A DNA stretch of 63,141 nucleotides from Campylobacterales bacterium (GTDB lineage Bacteria; Campylobacterota; Campylobacteria; Campylobacterales; JALSKU01): the NCBI GenBank assembly GCA_027044945.1, contig JALUBK010000046.1:1-63141 (forward strand), read 5' to 3'. The notes under the pieces were generated by a model. That model was not told where the DNA came from. It was given only the letters and a program-made list of their open reading frames with translations, and did not search any database. Made by a program: the position numbers and the translations under genes. Numbering within the stretch: position 1 is the first letter of the stretch; the number at the start of each line of letters is the position of its first letter. This document shows, in pieces, positions 246 to 63,141 of this stretch.

Positions 246-1691
246 TCATACAAAAGTCGGTGCATCATTGGAAAAAAGTATCAAATCCCCTTCTCTCGTC
301 TCTTTTGCAAGAATTTCTTGCATTTTACTTTTATCCGAAAGAATTAATTTTTTACATTTTTTTAAATTTTCTAATAAAATTATACTATTTGCCTTTCCCG
401 TAATAATAGATAAATCAAATATTTCATCAATTTTTTTAGCAAGTTTTATATTTGCTTCTTTTGTGCTTTCAATAATCCCCGGAGTTATGATAACTTTTCT
501 ACCTGAATATTGTTTTATTAATTCATAAGAACTTATCATACCTTCCAAATTTCCATTATAACTATCATCAATAATCAACTTTCCATTGCTTTGAATAAGT
601 TGCAGACGATGTTCAACCTGTTTCAAAGCTCGAACTCTTTTTTTTATTGTATCCAAATCCATTCCAAGTTCTTTTGCCATCAAAATTGATGCAGTAATAT
701 TTATTGCATTAAAATCGCCAAGTATATTTTTTGCTTCAAACTCTTCAAGATTTCCATTTATTTCAACTTTAAAACTCAATCCTTCGAGTGTAGCATTTAT
801 CTCTTTTATCTCATCTCCAAAAATTTGAACTTTTTCATTCGGTTTTACATTAGCATTTTTATACACATAAGCTTTTATAAGATTTTTACTTTGCAAAATC
901 TCCATTTTTGTGTCTCTGATATTTTCTAAAGTTTTAAAATATTCTATATGAGCAGGTCCAATTTTACCGACAATTGCATAATGATTTTGCACGATATTAA
1001 CTATTTTTTTTATGTCTCCTCTTTGTCTTGCTCCAGCTTCCACTATATAAACTTCTGTCCCTTTCGGTAATAAAGTATTAATATCTTTAACAATACCGGC
1101 TTCAGTATTTACACTTTTTGGAGTTTTATAGGTTTCAAAATTATTTTTTATAATTTGATAAAGAAAATTTTTCATACTTGTTTTACCATAACTAGCAGTT
1201 ATTCCAATAATTTTTAAATTTGTCATGGAAGAAATTTTTCTTTTAGCCTCTTTTTTAAATCCTTCAAATAAAATTTTTTCAAAAATATCACTCACAAAAA
1301 CTGTTACCACAAGAGGTAGAATAACTCCATAAATATAACATTTTTGAGTTGCTAAACATAAAATATCTTGAAAAGTAGTTGCCAAAATCAAAAATAAAAA
1401 AAATCTTTTAACTCTAGGAGTAAAAACTAATTTTTTATCAAGTTTTCTTTGCCACATATAATAAGTAGGTAAAAGTGCAAAATAAAAAAATATCCAAAAA
1501 TATTCTTTTGTAAAATAATATGAAAAAACAGGCACGATAAATAAAAAAATATGCCATAATGGTTTTGTATGTTTAAAAATAACTCTATCAAGTTTATAAT
1601 TATACCATTGCAAGTTTATTATTAAATACCAACCAAGAGAAACAGTAAAAAGAATATGAGAAAATATTATAAAAATAGTCATATAATTCAA
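246..1691 (-). CDS. murF: UDP-N-acetylmuramoyl-tripeptide--D-alanyl-D-alanine ligase (MurF) with N-terminal membrane region
   Basis: MurF joins D-Ala-D-Ala to the UDP-MurNAc-tripeptide, the last cytoplasmic step of peptidoglycan precursor synthesis. Residues about 163-171 (GITASYGKT) form the Mur-ligase P-loop, followed by the EAGARQRGDI and HRLQ...DDSYNGN stretches of the central and C-terminal domains. The first roughly 135 residues are not the usual UDP-substrate domain: they contain several hydrophobic helices, an arrangement known in Campylobacterota MurF, and suggest membrane attachment near MraY/MurG. The start is TTG at 1691, with AAGGAG six bases upstream; it overlaps the upstream hydrolase stop by four bases, so the two are probably translationally coupled. 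The substrate Ddl makes is encoded two genes upstream. Confidence 0.93.
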   Translation of the reverse strand: MNYMTIFIIFSHILFTVSLGWYLIINLQWYNYKLDRVIFKHTKPLWHIFLFIVPVFSYYFTKEYFWIFFYFALLPTYYMWQRKLDKKLVFTPRVKRFFLFLILATTFQDILCLATQKCYIYGVILPLVVTVFVSDIFEKILFEGFKKEAKRKISSMTNLKIIGITASYGKTSMKNFLYQIIKNNFETYKTPKSVNTEAGIVKDINTLLPKGTEVYIVEAGARQRGDIKKIVNIVQNHYAIVGKIGPAHIEYFKTLENIRDTKMEILQSKNLIKAYVYKNANVKPNEKVQIFGDEIKEINATLEGLSFKVEINGNLEEFEAKNILGDFNAINITASILMAKELGMDLDTIKKRVRALKQVEHRLQLIQSNGKLIIDDSYNGNLEGMISSYELIKQYSGRKVIITPGIIESTKEANIKLAKKIDEIFDLSIITGKANSIILLENLKKCKKLILSDKSKMQEILAKETREGDLILFSNDAPTFV

Positions 1692-2407
1692 ATCATACTC
1701 CTTAATATTTCATGTGATATAAATTCACCTTGTTTTAAAAAAAAGAAATGCTCTCCCGGCAATGGATAAAATTTAGAATTTTTTATAAAAACATGAATTT
1801 GTTTTCCTGAGCTTAAAGGTGTAGTTTTATCATCTTTACCCCAAAATATAAGTGCTTGATTTGAAAAATCTTTAAATTGGTTTGAAAAATCTTCATTTAT
1901 TACATTTTTAAAAGTTTCATACATGTTTTTAGATAAATTTTGTGCATCTTTTGAAACAAATATTTTATACATACGAGACAATCCTATATTTTTAAAAATT
2001 TTAAAAATAATTATTTTCATTTTAACACTTAAAGATTTTTTTTCAACGATTCCTGCACTGCTTAAAAGAACCAAAATATTTGGATTTAATAACAATGCAA
2101 CTTTTCCTCCGAAAGAATGGCCTGCTATTATATCTGTTTTTGCTTTTATATCTTGTAAAAAAATTTTAATAATATTTGCATAATCTTTTGTATTTAAAAT
2201 TATATTATTTGAACTTTTACCAAATCCGGGAAGATCTATATAAATATGTCTAAAATTTTTCATTTTTTTTTCAAAAGCTTGTTTCATGATCTCTTTATTG
2301 CTTCCCCATCCATGCAACACAATAAAATCAATAGATTTATCCGGATTTATTATCTCATAAGAAATATTAAAATTATGGTTTTTATAAAAAATTTCTCTTA
2401 TAGCCAA
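1688..2407 (-). CDS. Alpha/beta-fold hydrolase
   Basis: A 239-residue protein with the alpha/beta-hydrolase pattern: HGWGSN oxyanion region near residue 32, the nucleophile elbow GHSFGG (about residues 96-101), an acid region FWGKDDKTTP, and a late histidine in PGEHFFF. The catalytic Ser-Asp-His set is therefore visible, but the substrate is not. TTG start with GAGGAG six bases upstream. The stop overlaps the start of murF, and homologues sit beside murF in Campylobacter, which hints at a linked envelope role but does not prove one. Could be an esterase, thioesterase or BioH-like enzyme. Confidence 0.85.
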   Translation of the reverse strand: MAIREIFYKNHNFNISYEIINPDKSIDFIVLHGWGSNKEIMKQAFEKKMKNFRHIYIDLPGFGKSSNNIILNTKDYANIIKIFLQDIKAKTDIIAGHSFGGKVALLLNPNILVLLSSAGIVEKKSLSVKMKIIIFKIFKNIGLSRMYKIFVSKDAQNLSKNMYETFKNVINEDFSNQFKDFSNQALIFWGKDDKTTPLSSGKQIHVFIKNSKFYPLPGEHFFFLKQGEFISHEILRSMI

Positions 2408-2424: not shown

Positions 2425-2670
2425 TTATTTTAAAACATTTATTTTTTGAGATGTTCTTTTATTTTTTTCATAAAGTTTTTGAATAATTTCATAAGCATCT
2501 TTTAATTTTTCATATTCATCTATATGTAAAAGAATTGCTTCAAATTTATTATTTTTTACAATAACCACCCTATCCTTTTCCTTTTTTACAACAGATTTTA
2601 AAATGGAACTAAAATTTCTTACAACTTCAGTAGCAGTATATATTTCATCTTTTTTATATAAAGTTGCCAT
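2425..2670 (-). CDS. Phd/YefM-family antitoxin-like DNA-binding protein, no toxin beside it
   Basis: An 81-residue protein with the Phd/YefM N-terminal fold (TATEVVRNFSSILKSV, then VVIVKNNKFEAILLHIDEYEKL). In classical toxin-antitoxin pairs this domain binds the operon's own promoter and the C-terminus neutralises a toxin. Here the tail after residue 60 is short and lysine-rich, and the next gene downstream is a hydrolase, not a Doc, YoeB or RelE toxin. ATG start with AAGG seven bases upstream. The 57-base gap before it holds a TATAAT box and two sets of direct repeats (listed separately), consistent with self-regulation. A similar gene occupies this place in Campylobacter, so it appears to be part of the core order rather than a mobile module. 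Confidence 0.75.
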   Translation of the reverse strand: MATLYKKDEIYTATEVVRNFSSILKSVVKKEKDRVVIVKNNKFEAILLHIDEYEKLKDAYEIIQKLYEKNKRTSQKINVLK

Positions 2671-2692
2671 GATGATACCTTTTGTAATTCGT

Positions 2693-2732
2693 AAAATAAT
2701 ACATAAAATAATACATATTATAACATATTATT
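2693..2732 (-). promoter_or_regulatory. Putative promoter and operator repeats of the Phd-like gene
   Basis: On the minus strand a TATAAT -10 box lies at 2722-2717, about 47 bases before the ATG. Directly downstream of it are two perfect 12-base direct repeats (plus-strand AAAATAATACAT at 2693-2704 and 2705-2716). A second near-perfect pair (ACATATTATA at 2713-2722 and ACATATTATT at 2723-2732) covers the -10 box and runs into the 3' end of ddl. The two repeat families are imperfect inverses of each other. The layout is what a repressor site over a promoter would look like; binding by the Phd-like protein is inferred. Confidence 0.5.
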
Positions 2733-3765
2733 TACATTTTACGGCATTTATAGAATTAATATATTTATAATCTATATCTATTTTTCTTTGTTTTGGCAAA
2801 TTTAGAGATATCATAGATAAAATATCATTAAAATCATCAAATAAATAATTAGCCAAACTTCCGGGAATTGGATTGATTTCATTTAAATAAATTTTATCAT
2901 CTTTGTAAAAAAAATCACACCTTATAATAGCTCCTTCAAAAAGTGTTCCATATATATTTTTAAAGTTATTTTGTATTCTTTTTTTCAATTCTTTTGAAAG
3001 ATCTGCCTTGTTAGCTCCTTCGCTTCTTGAAAAATCAAGATATTTTTTATCAAAATCCAAAATACTTTCTTTTCTTGGCTCTTCTATCATAGAAAAAATA
3101 AATCCATCTTTTGATTTAATACCTGCTAAATTATATTCTTTAATATTGTCATAAAAAGGCTCTATTAAAATATCATCATCAAATTCATAAGCAACATCTA
3201 ATGCATATTCCAACTCAGAATTTTTTTTAACGACACTCAATCCTATGGAACTTCCAAGCCTCAAAGGTTTTATTATTATTGGAAAATCAAAATCTATAGT
3301 TTGTTTAAAATTTTTATTTAAAACTTGATATGGTAAAGTTTCTACATTTTTACTTTTAGCATATAATTTTGTAAATTCCTTATTGAAACTTATCACACTT
3401 CCTTCTGTTCTAGGTCCAATATAATTAATATTGAAAAAATCCAACAAAGAGGGGATTGTTCCATCTTCTCCATCTTTTCCATGAATTAGATTGACAATCA
3501 AATCAAATTCTATTTTTTTTTCTTTTAAAAGTAATTTTTGATAAAATCCGCCTTTTTTTAAAATTAATTTTTGTGCTTTTTTATATTCAAAACTACTAAA
3601 ATATTTTGCTTTTAACTTTTCTTCATCTATAAGATAAAATTCTCTATCTTTGTCGCAAAAAATATAAATTTTTTCTTCATTTATTACATTTTTCAATGTT
3701 ATAGCACTTACAATACTTATTTCATGCTCATAACTATTTGCTCCAAACAATATAGCATATTTCAT
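2728..3765 (-). CDS. ddl: D-alanine--D-alanine ligase
   Basis: Makes the D-Ala-D-Ala dipeptide that MurF attaches to the peptidoglycan precursor. The 345-residue ATP-grasp enzyme shows the N-terminal EHEISIVSA (about 13-21), the substrate loop HGKDGEDGT (95-103), the ATP-grasp strand KPLRLGSSIG (166-175) and the metal-binding NEINPIPG near residue 313. ATG start preceded by AGGA. It follows ruvA by 12 bases and precedes the Phd-like gene on the same strand; murF lies two genes further on, so the dipeptide maker and user are co-located. Confidence 0.95.
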   Translation of the reverse strand: MKYAILFGANSYEHEISIVSAITLKNVINEEKIYIFCDKDREFYLIDEEKLKAKYFSSFEYKKAQKLILKKGGFYQKLLLKEKKIEFDLIVNLIHGKDGEDGTIPSLLDFFNINYIGPRTEGSVISFNKEFTKLYAKSKNVETLPYQVLNKNFKQTIDFDFPIIIKPLRLGSSIGLSVVKKNSELEYALDVAYEFDDDILIEPFYDNIKEYNLAGIKSKDGFIFSMIEEPRKESILDFDKKYLDFSRSEGANKADLSKELKKRIQNNFKNIYGTLFEGAIIRCDFFYKDDKIYLNEINPIPGSLANYLFDDFNDILSMISLNLPKQRKIDIDYKYINSINAVKCK

Positions 3766-45234: not shown

Positions 45235-46602
45235 TTGAGTAAAACCATTTTAGGCATAGATATCGGCTCAACCAAAATATGTGCAATTATTGCTCAAAAA
45301 AACAGTGAATCTATAAAAATAGTCGGTAGTGGTCTTGTCAAATCAAAAGGTATTAAAAAAGGCATCATAACAAATATAGAACTTGCCTCTAAAACTATAA
45401 AAGATGCTTTGGAAGAAGCCAAAAAAGTTGCCGGAACCAATATAGATCAAGTTATTATTTCTATTTCTGGAACATACACAAAAAGTGTTGAAAGTTATGG
45501 TGTAGTCAATATTCCAGATAAAGATATAGGAATTAAAGAGATAAATCGAGTCATGATGATGGCTGACCACAATGCAAATATACCAAATGATTACGAAAGA
45601 ATACATCTTCTTCCATATAATTTTAAAGTAGATAATCAAGAATTTATAGATGATCCTCTTGGAATGAATGGAAATAGACTAGAAGTTCATGTTCATATTA
45701 TAATAGCTCAAAAAACTTCACTCAACAATTTAAAAAAAGCTGTAGAATTGGCAGGAATCAAGATTGATAATATTGTTTTAACAAGTTATGCTTCAAGTCT
45801 TGCAGTTTTAAATGAAGATGAAAAAGAGTTGGGAGCTGGAGTTATCGATATAGGAGGAGCTACTTGTAACTTGGCTATTAATGCAAACAATAGCATAAGA
45901 TATAATGATTTTTTAGGAGTTGGGTCAAATAATATAACTAACGACTTGTCTATGGCTCTTCATACTCCACTAAGTGCTGCGGAAGAAGTAAAACTAAAGT
46001 ATGGATCTTTAAAAAAAATCAGTAGCGAACTTATAGAATTACCTCTTATAGGGGATGATAATCACACAAACGAAGTTTCTCTTGAAATAGTTTCAAATGT
46101 TATATATGCTAGGGTTGAAGAAACACTTATGATACTTGCAAAATCCATAGATGAAAGTGGCTTTAAAGATCAAATTGGAGCTGGTATTATTTTGACTGGA
46201 GGTTTTACAAAATTGGAAGGCTTAAGGGAATTAGCAGTAGCGATATTTGATAATATGCCAGTGAGAATAGCTAAACCGAAAAATTTAAGCGGAATGTTTG
46301 AAGCTTTAAAAGATCCAATTTATTCAACAGCTGTCGGACTTGTCCTTTATGGTGGGGGTTGCTTTACACCTTATGAAATAGATTCAAACAAAAAATTAAG
46401 ATATAAAAATGAAATCATGGAAGTATCACAAAATATACAAAATATTATTGAAGAAACACAAGAGGTAAAGCTTGAAACAAAATTAAAAAAAGACGATATT
46501 ACTAATATTAAAAAAATAAAAATAAAAAACGAAAATAAATTTAAAAATAAATTTAAAAATGAAATTTCTAAATTTTGGAATACTGTAACACAACTATTTT
46601 GA
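45235..46602 (+). CDS. ftsA: Cell division protein FtsA
   Basis: Actin-fold protein tethering FtsZ to the membrane. GIDIGSTKICAIIA is the phosphate-1 loop, GAGVIDIGGATCNLAI phosphate-2, and GAGIILTGGFTKLEGL the adenosine motif. A 60-residue lysine/asparagine-rich linker leads to a C-terminal amphipathic helix (ISKFWNTVTQLF) for membrane binding. TTG start with AAGGA seven bases upstream. The linker DNA contains two copies of a 12-base repeat (46534-46557). Confidence 0.96.
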   Translation: MSKTILGIDIGSTKICAIIAQKNSESIKIVGSGLVKSKGIKKGIITNIELASKTIKDALEEAKKVAGTNIDQVIISISGTYTKSVESYGVVNIPDKDIGIKEINRVMMMADHNANIPNDYERIHLLPYNFKVDNQEFIDDPLGMNGNRLEVHVHIIIAQKTSLNNLKKAVELAGIKIDNIVLTSYASSLAVLNEDEKELGAGVIDIGGATCNLAINANNSIRYNDFLGVGSNNITNDLSMALHTPLSAAEEVKLKYGSLKKISSELIELPLIGDDNHTNEVSLEIVSNVIYARVEETLMILAKSIDESGFKDQIGAGIILTGGFTKLEGLRELAVAIFDNMPVRIAKPKNLSGMFEALKDPIYSTAVGLVLYGGGCFTPYEIDSNKKLRYKNEIMEVSQNIQNIIEETQEVKLETKLKKDDITNIKKIKIKNENKFKNKFKNEISKFWNTVTQLF

Positions 46603-61849: not shown

Positions 61850-63141
61850 TTATACCTTTTTAAGCATAACTTTTAACTCTTGAAAAACTGCATTATTTCC
61901 TTTCAAAGAACACATTGAAGGAGTTAAATAATTATAATATCTATTTCCCGCATGACACATTAAAGTATCCATTCTCAAATTCATATCAATTTTAACTAAA
62001 AATTCAGCTTTGCCATAATCTGATACAAGTTCTACTTTTTCATCATCTTTAAAACCAAGCAAGGGAGGAATATATAAAAAATTATCTATTTTAAAACTAC
62101 TGTTTAAAGAATTTTTATTTTTTTTGGTAATAAGAAAATATTTTTCATTATCTTTAAAATCATCTTCAAAATCATCTTCAAAATCATCCAAAAAAATAAA
62201 TTTACCATTATCGGTTAAAAAATTATTTTTATATGGAATTTTTGTATATGCTTTGGATATTAAATATCCATCTTTTTTTACAGTATTTGATTCTATTATC
62301 TCTTTTATATAATCTTTTTCACTTTTTATTTTTACATTAAAAAATTTTTGTATAAGATATTTTGTAAATTCATATTCGCTTATGCCGTTACAAGTATCTT
62401 TTTGCTTCGTCATCAATCCAATATACTCATGACCATAATTTGTTTTTACATCATTTTTAGATAAAAAATCAACAGCTGGTATAACTAAATCTGCAAGTTT
62501 TGAAGTTTCATTTTCATACAACCCAAAATATACCACAAATGAACTTTTTTTAAGAGATTCAATAACTTTTTTTGTATTTGGCAAACTAACTGCAGGATTG
62601 GCTCCTTGTATAAAAACTATATTAAATTTTGAAAAATCAACCGTAGGCAAAACTACTGTTTTTGAAAGCTTGGCAATACTGCTTTTAAATCCGTAAAAGC
62701 TATTGGCAAGATAGCTCACGCCACATCCTTCTTGCCCAAAAAGACCAAGCATTGCGGCAAACGAATCAACAGCTCTTAAAACTTGATTTCCTATAAAATA
62801 TTTTTGAACACCAATACCTACCAAAAAAACTATTTTTTTGTTTTTTATAAGATCAATAATTTCCCAAGCTTTATCTATCGCTATATCACACATTTCAGAT
62901 AATTTTTTCATGTGAAAACTCTCAAAGAGATTTACAAAATCATCAAAATTTTCTGTTTTATTTTTTATAAACTCAACATTTTCTCCCTGAGTTATATATA
63001 ATATTCTACTAAGTAATAAAGCTAAATAAAAATCTCCTCTTGGTTTTACTTGTAAATATATATCAGCTTTAAAACTAAGATTTGTTTTATAAGGATCTAT
63101 TATTATCAGTTTCTTATCTTTTAAATATGGCAACATGTGTG
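61850..63141 (-). CDS. Molybdopterin oxidoreductase family protein, C-terminal part (NuoG/formate dehydrogenase-like)
   Basis: The gene enters from beyond the right edge; 430 codons are visible. KKIVFLVGIGVQKYFIG, DSFAAMLGLFGQEGCGVSYL, IVFIQGANPAVSLPNTKKV and ENETSKLADLVIPAVDFL follow the molybdopterin-oxidoreductase pattern of the large NuoG subunit or of formate dehydrogenases. No cofactor-ligand residue can be assigned in this fragment. An ATG at 63136 opens the frame, but codons continue upstream and it is unlikely to be the true start. A 12-base tandem repeat (62156-62191) encodes an acidic DDFE stretch. Confidence 0.75.
   Translation of the reverse strand, partial: HMLPYLKDKKLIIIDPYKTNLSFKADIYLQVKPRGDFYLALLLSRILYITQGENVEFIKNKTENFDDFVNLFESFHMKKLSEMCDIAIDKAWEIIDLIKNKKIVFLVGIGVQKYFIGNQVLRAVDSFAAMLGLFGQEGCGVSYLANSFYGFKSSIAKLSKTVVLPTVDFSKFNIVFIQGANPAVSLPNTKKVIESLKKSSFVVYFGLYENETSKLADLVIPAVDFLSKNDVKTNYGHEYIGLMTKQKDTCNGISEYEFTKYLIQKFFNVKIKSEKDYIKEIIESNTVKKDGYLISKAYTKIPYKNNFLTDNGKFIFLDDFEDDFEDDFKDNEKYFLITKKNKNSLNSSFKIDNFLYIPPLLGFKDDEKVELVSDYGKAEFLVKIDMNLRMDTLMCHAGNRYYNYLTPSMCSLKGNNAVFQELKVMLKKV
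62156..62191 (+). repeat. 12-base tandem repeat inside the molybdopterin oxidoreductase gene
   Basis: Two perfect copies of AAAATCATCTTC (62156-62167, 62168-62179) and a third that diverges in its last three bases. In frame on the minus strand it encodes repeating Asp-Asp-Phe-Glu. As 12 is a multiple of three, copy-number change would alter length without breaking the frame. Confidence 0.75.

Follow-up and report, generated by a model that had tools for sequence, protein, structure and literature searches.

A solitary Phd/YefM-like gene in a campylobacterial cell-wall locus is preceded by a conserved array of predicted operator sites

Introduction

Does a Phd-like gene that stands in a cell-wall locus, with no toxin gene beside it, regulate its own promoter, and how far along the locus would such control reach? 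The question was raised by a preliminary description of a Campylobacterales genome, which reported two pairs of direct repeats across the promoter of such a gene, read them as an operator bound by the Phd-like protein and suggested that the protein may now control a cell-wall/recombination operon rather than a toxin. The window, as we call the whole stretch of 63,141 nucleotides that was analysed, carries on its minus strand fapA, ruvA (identified from its translation), ddl, the Phd-like gene (phd), a gene for an EstV-like hydrolase and murF, the last named from its locus position and pathway, with its start codon as mechanically listed (Table 1).

Comparison with related genomes makes it probable, in our judgement, that the gene encodes a solitary Phd/YefM autorepressor of phd, the hydrolase gene and, where adjacent, murF, and not of ddl or ruvA. 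Such a regulator is ordinary in kind; what is unusual is that a cell-wall locus holds it as a core gene. The orthologue in Campylobacter jejuni, Cj0797c, is a core gene, for which an operator conserved over three families gives a testable mechanism; the array also supplies a search motif for the targets of the Phd-like protein, and would show the DNA-binding half of an antitoxin outliving its toxin.

Table 1. Positions of the predicted operator, promoter and genes in the window
Feature	Position	Strand	Basis
Operator array (predicted), sub-sites TATGTA/TATGTA/TACGAA at a 12-bp pitch	2688..2717	-	Exact triple pattern; same pitch and place in relatives
Sub-site 1, TATGTA	2717-2712	-	
Sub-site 2, TATGTA	2705-2700	-	
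Sub-site 3, TACGAA	2693-2688	-	
-10 box TATAAT (predicted)	2717..2722	-	Sequence; TG one base upstream; last base common to sub-site 1
Two perfect 12-base repeats of the preliminary description	2693..2716	+	Repeat search of the window
Phd/YefM-like gene, 81 aa, solitary, Cj0797c orthologue	2425..2670	-	PF02604, 29-row alignment, AlphaFold model
ddl, D-Ala-D-Ala ligase; lies ahead of the internal promoter	2728..3765	-	NCBIfam NF002527, 363 bits
Alpha/beta hydrolase (EstV family), directly following phd	1688..2407	-	NCBIfam NF058580, 361 bits (cut-off 300)
murF, 4-base overlap with the hydrolase gene as called	246..1691	-	Mur_ligase_M, E 3.3e-22

The repeats between ddl and phd

The two perfect 12-base copies of AAAATAATACAT are present at 2693-2704 and 2705-2716. 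The 10-base pair described with them also exists, at 2713-2722 (ACATATTATA) and 2723-2732 (ACATATTATT), and is weak as a repeat: its first member consists of the -10 box and part of sub-site 1, and its second spans the ddl stop codon (2728-2730). The intergenic gap measures 57 bp, and the repeats extend into the end of ddl. Read on the minus strand, they form TATGTA-N6-TATGTA-N6-TACGAA, starting from the last base of the TATAAT box.

The period-12 match in the gap is 14 bases long. No period-12 run of at least 13 arose in 20 Markov simulations of the window, and four of the 20 each produced a single run of that length or more when periods of 8 to 30 were allowed. Elsewhere the window contains two longer period-12 runs, at 62157-62189 and 46533-46561 (21 and 17 matches), so the run in the gap is little proof by itself. 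A genome-wide search for further copies, as had been proposed, returned five exact 12-mers on the forward strand and none on the reverse (backwards control, four); the 12-mer is not rare, and this search was set aside as uninformative. The pattern TAYRTA N6 TAYRTA N6 TAYRWA occurs without mismatch at two places in the 1.42-Mb genome, the window array at 2688-2717 and C31:1233-1274. With one mismatch allowed there is no excess (8 matches vs 11 in the reversed control), so the case rests on the comparison with relatives and not on the single genome.

Other ways of describing the site were less useful. The window copy agrees with a 22-mer consensus derived from Campylobacter at 17 of 22 positions, and when the whole consensus was run over the window this copy did not stand out; the register of the array was needed instead. 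No larger palindrome surrounds the window array, whose palindrome score was reached by 420 of 500 shuffles. A generic promoter scan gave no excess (7 vs 5.4) and did not have the TATAAT box at 2717-2722 among its matches. When the surroundings of the array were scanned for -10 boxes, a perfect TATAAT was seen 5-20 bases ahead of the best pair at 10 of 44 loci; at 25 of the 44 the best -10 match is TAAAAT or similar within the array's own spacer, which is uninformative.

Conservation of the array among relatives

The gene was collected from 115 loci, same-genome copies included, one of which was dropped for too little upstream sequence, and 69 distinct upstream regions, differing in their last 60 bases, were recognized. 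The preliminary description had proposed a search of the same gap in relatives, and that search supports the operator: a pair of TAYRTA sub-sites at a 12-bp pitch, matching at least 11 of 12 positions, is found in 45 of the 69 regions, a count that overstates the number of events, related genomes not being independent. Shuffling (200 rounds) gave a mean of 1.95 such regions and a maximum of 6. Perfect pairs occur in 33 of 69 (shuffle mean 0.185); by spacing, they number 33 at 12, seven at 24 and one at 8, with none at any other spacing from 6 to 24. None of 180 control upstream regions from these loci (murF 42, hydrolase 61, ddl 45, ruvA 32) holds a 12-bp-pitch pair matching at 11 or more positions.

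When 43 loci were aligned, each of the eight T/A positions of the paired sub-sites was kept in 86-100% of them, and for seven positions the figure was 95% or more. The sub-site centres (n=86) are CA in 36, TG in 35, CG in 13 and TA in two, under a scoring that favours Y then R and not C/G over T/A in this AT-rich DNA. Since the centres vary (CA, TG, CG) and the number of sub-sites shifts between two and three, mere inheritance is disfavoured. As judged from these alignments, the conserved unit is TAYRTA at a 12-bp pitch, not the letters of the 12-base repeat, and the repeats of the window are real and represent one version of a conserved, predicted operator.

Within the genus, the gene is present in eight of nine genomes (the ninth is 80% complete), and the array precedes it in all eight; the array is found again in Campylobacter and Sulfurospirillum. 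The 24 regions scoring below 11 were sorted by eye into 14 gapless loci, nine divergent arrays and one region with no array (L188). In the gapless loci, which include C. volucris, C. troglodytis and Sulfurospirillum arcachonense, phd abuts ddl and leaves no room for a promoter; together with L188 they show that the protein is retained even at loci that lack the operator. Seven of the nine divergent arrays contain a 34-base palindrome whose score was reached by none or one of 500 shuffles, and two, L049 (51/500) and L040 (270/500), have no such palindrome.

Genes under the promoter

A scan of the genome collection gave 42 loci, and 39 remained after three distant ones (L054-L056) were set aside. 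The statement that no toxin gene adjoins phd holds: its neighbours in the window are ddl and the hydrolase gene, and the hydrolase gene follows phd at all 39 loci. ddl lies ahead of phd at 35 of them, the other four comprising two at contig edges and two with other genes upstream; murF is within reach at 37. At L020 and L040, phd, array and hydrolase gene sit away from ddl, behind a groEL-like and a leuA-like gene, respectively. As the array moves with phd and the hydrolase gene at these loci, it is tied to phd and not to ddl.

The proposed control of a cell-wall/recombination operon can be upheld in part. Being internal, the promoter has phd, the hydrolase gene and, where adjacent, murF downstream; ddl and ruvA lie upstream of it and fall outside the proposal. 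In the mechanism that we favour, the Phd-like protein would repress its own internal promoter, its dimers binding two or three successive TAYRTA palindromes at 12-bp intervals. The bound palindromes would cover the -10 box and the expected transcription start, and repression would shut off phd, the EstV-like hydrolase and adjacent murF. Binding of the protein to the array, repression through that binding and joint binding by several dimers are the steps that we infer.

The Phd-like protein and known systems

The window protein matches the PF02604 profile (E 7.4e-08; 32.5 bits, above the cut-off of 29.8) and scores 19.4 with NCBIfam phd_fam, just under its cut-off of 20.8. In a 29-row alignment, the N-terminal part hardly varies, and A13-S21 and K39-N41 show little or no variation. 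When YefM is aligned with the protein, R31 of YefM pairs with the invariant K39, and R10 lies one position off the invariant R18. The AlphaFold model has a mean pLDDT of 88.2 and a pTM of 0.62. Foldseek ranks 1-49 are all antitoxin chains, mostly of the YefM, Phd and RelB kinds, at probabilities of 0.90-1.00 and with a best E of only 6.9e-03; structural Z scores reach 7.7, and unrelated rows begin at 4.2 and run downward. Operator-bound Phd/YefM chains are among the fold matches. A PDB search by sequence profile returned no chain at E 0.01. The model thus suggests a Phd/YefM fold, for which the Foldseek E and the Z scores below 8 are modest evidence alone, yet above the unrelated rows.

The closest likeness is to the YefM-YoeB operator of Escherichia coli. 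According to PMC4803016, YefM is a repressor with two palindromes 12 bp apart from centre to centre, one of them over the -10 region, and its DNA binding needs two arginines. The pitch and the overlap with the predicted -10 box are the same here, and the same fold is predicted: in the window the sub-sites stand at 12 bp and TATAAT overlaps sub-site 1. The core differs, being TGTACA in E. coli and TAYRTA in the predicted operator, which often has a third sub-site; the gene here is moreover solitary, with no adjoining toxin gene, and the C-terminal tail of its product is shorter. The comparison, in its conserved array, YefM geometry and Phd/YefM fold, supports the suggestion that the repeats are an operator for the Phd-like protein, which would bind them and so repress the promoter.

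Phd of phage P1 has a similar fold, to which the model aligns from residue 8 (Z 7.2 over 61 residues, 4zm2). It differs from the protein described here, which has a seven-residue N-terminal extension, no adjoining Doc partner and a gene on the chromosome, within a cell-wall locus.

Cj0797c of Campylobacter jejuni

Cj0797c is the same gene, since the C. jejuni loci place it between ddl and the hydrolase gene; Cj0798c (Ddl) and Cj0796c are given as the genes on either side in PMC5530802. Its array is a variant, TACGCT-TACATA-AGCGTA (L035). A literature search by title or abstract start, mostly outside subscription journals, found nothing on a Cj0797c operator. PMC10077673 calls Cj0797c essential in C. 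jejuni and C. coli and describes its product as hypothetical, noting a Phd/YefM match; the gene is core and not called essential in C. lari and C. hyointestinalis. Essentiality was dropped as evidence for the operator, the gene being non-essential in the latter two species on that account and a polar effect on murF being possible. Of two C. jejuni 11168 variants, one had more of both MurF and Cj0796c, which may be essential (PMC5530802); this joint rise would fit one transcript. CJE0888, a 71-residue 'prevent-host-death family protein', is listed among the Campylobacter-specific proteins in PMC1557499, and its length suggests that it is the Cj0797c gene.

Alternative explanations

The array might instead be bound by some other regulator, with the Phd-like gene lying under that promoter by coincidence. 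The gene is kept in lineages with no array, arrays occur elsewhere too, and the link between array and protein is drawn from sequence comparison, all of which this explanation would accommodate. We nevertheless consider it unlikely, first because array and gene co-occur in three families. In a set of 398 genomes from the order, only families f1, f3, f10 and f20 gave matches at E 1e-27 or better; some match at 1e-8 was present in 178, the weaker ones being taken as other Phd proteins. Families f10 and f20 appear to be those holding Campylobacter and Sulfurospirillum, because loci in these families share identical upstream sequences with the named loci L030 and L031. A scan of the 398 genomes for strict triple arrays with at most two mismatches, counted by hand and with the families of strong orthologues taken from the gene scan, found them in 23 of 99 genomes of f1, f10 and f20 vs six in the reversed control, some of the 23 (e.g. 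G008, G123, G255 and G260) being unlike arrays. By family, the counts are 6/9 for f1, 4/46 for f10, whose arrays mostly have two sub-sites or variant outer ones and are missed by the strict pattern, and 13/44 for f20, with the reversed pattern in two, one and three genomes; seven of the 13 matches in f20 sit 9-12 bases ahead of the phd match. Families with no strong orthologue show no enrichment (28 of the other 299 genomes vs 31 in the reversed control). In addition, the array matches YefM in its 12-bp spacing across the -10 box. A second Phd in the same genome, which is paired with a toxin, has no TAYRTA pair scoring at least 11 upstream (best 10/12).

The Phd-like protein could also still be the antitoxin of a toxin encoded elsewhere, the array then serving ordinary toxin-antitoxin autoregulation, which we think improbable. 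The essential call for Cj0797c in C. jejuni and C. coli (PMC10077673) is what a live toxin would lead one to expect, and YoeB-like proteins were found in four of nine genomes searched (G001, G002, G003 and G008). The toxin search covered ParE-family and YoeB proteins. Against a distant partner, the window's own genome has no YoeB match and two PF02604 matches, the second of which, at C37, is followed by the sole ParE-family match of the genome; G011 and G012 (C. jejuni and C. coli) have no YoeB match either. The C37 genes (L098 501-1127) form a complete Phd-ParE toxin-antitoxin pair. Tail length may also speak against this explanation: from K39 to the C-terminus, 60 of 62 distinct orthologues have 33-43 residues (middle value 37; the other two have no KNN), the window protein being the longest of them at 43, vs 57 from the corresponding position of the toxin-paired Phd, the one paired Phd compared.

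Functionless repeats produced by chance or slippage, an idea that the AT-rich region, the commonness of the 12-mer and the other period-12 runs of the window might invite, are contradicted by the conservation, spacing and control counts and are exceedingly improbable.

Arrays elsewhere

Additional triple arrays were found in 16 of 39 genomes, vs two in the reversed control, one of them a TA run. They lie before hypA, trmA and tlyA, beside hypD, near proA and after a thiE-like gene. The names murA, hypA, hypD, cysE, trmA, tlyA and proA were confirmed by NCBIfam matches; TetR, thiE, hypE, ilvC, groEL and leuA were read from translations, TetR and thiE having no NCBIfam match at 1e-20. The arrays are mostly single and scattered, and a common regulon outside the genus is not claimed. 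Extra sites of a 20-mer in 23 genomes include some inside genes, and the flanks of 15 of these sites share no target gene.

Several individual arrays may be recorded. In C. bilis and C. jejuni an array precedes the same aminotransferase gene (L136 3000-3029 and L137 3009-3038), its position preserved despite differing letters, and cysE lies on the other flank in C. jejuni. Hydrogenase-maturation clusters of two genomes carry arrays, one before hypA (L134 3181-3210), the other beside hypD (L142 220-249). In two f20 genomes an array occupies matching places, about 10 bp upstream of trmA in the first (L195 2477-2506; L196 2371-2400). In the window's own genome a TTATGTAAAATTTTACAGAA site lies on the minus strand just upstream of an ilvC-like gene (L085 1864-1883 at C63).

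The second exact array of this genome (C31:1233-1274, L097) has four sub-sites and lies between a TetR-like gene and murA. Compared by eye with the dif site of Sulfurimonas denitrificans (PMC2731167), the adjacent TTTCAAGAGAATATATATTATGTTAACCAA has 3 differing bases out of 30. Among the five genus members with a readable dif (G000, G002, G003, G005 and G008), the best triples score 18, 18, 18 and 17 of 18 in G000, G003, G005 and G008, where the dif core follows the array start after 66, 51, 85 and 87 bp; G002 (L144) has dif and no array beside it (best 12). By simulation, a region would reach 18 by chance with probability 0.0001 and at least 17 with probability 0.0022, although the genomes are related. 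The dif-side arrays, at L097, L139, L141 and L143, all precede a classical dif site and start about 195-340 bp ahead of murA. G001 and G004 each have an array at a contig end, with the TetR-like gene about 370 and 308 bp away, respectively.

On a bolder view, a former antitoxin would have become a chromosomal regulator with a second, fixed site next to the chromosome-dimer resolution site: in the window's genus it would bind the array of three or four sub-sites that lies in front of dif and murA, tying the synthesis of peptidoglycan precursors (murA, murF) to the chromosome terminus. We hold this to be unlikely. Were the array next to dif and murA a genuine target, one regulator would serve both cell-wall synthesis and chromosome termination. 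Since the extra arrays outside the genus are single and at other places, the dif-side address would be a lineage-specific use, the protein elsewhere governing itself and a few other genes. One of those arrays stands 720 bp from difH in one genome, the only such array near difH within the flanks scanned. In G002, an inverted repeat after dif (L144, around 1728) copies the TTATGTTAA arm of that dif (TTATGTTAACCAAACTTTGTTTGTTTAACATAA).
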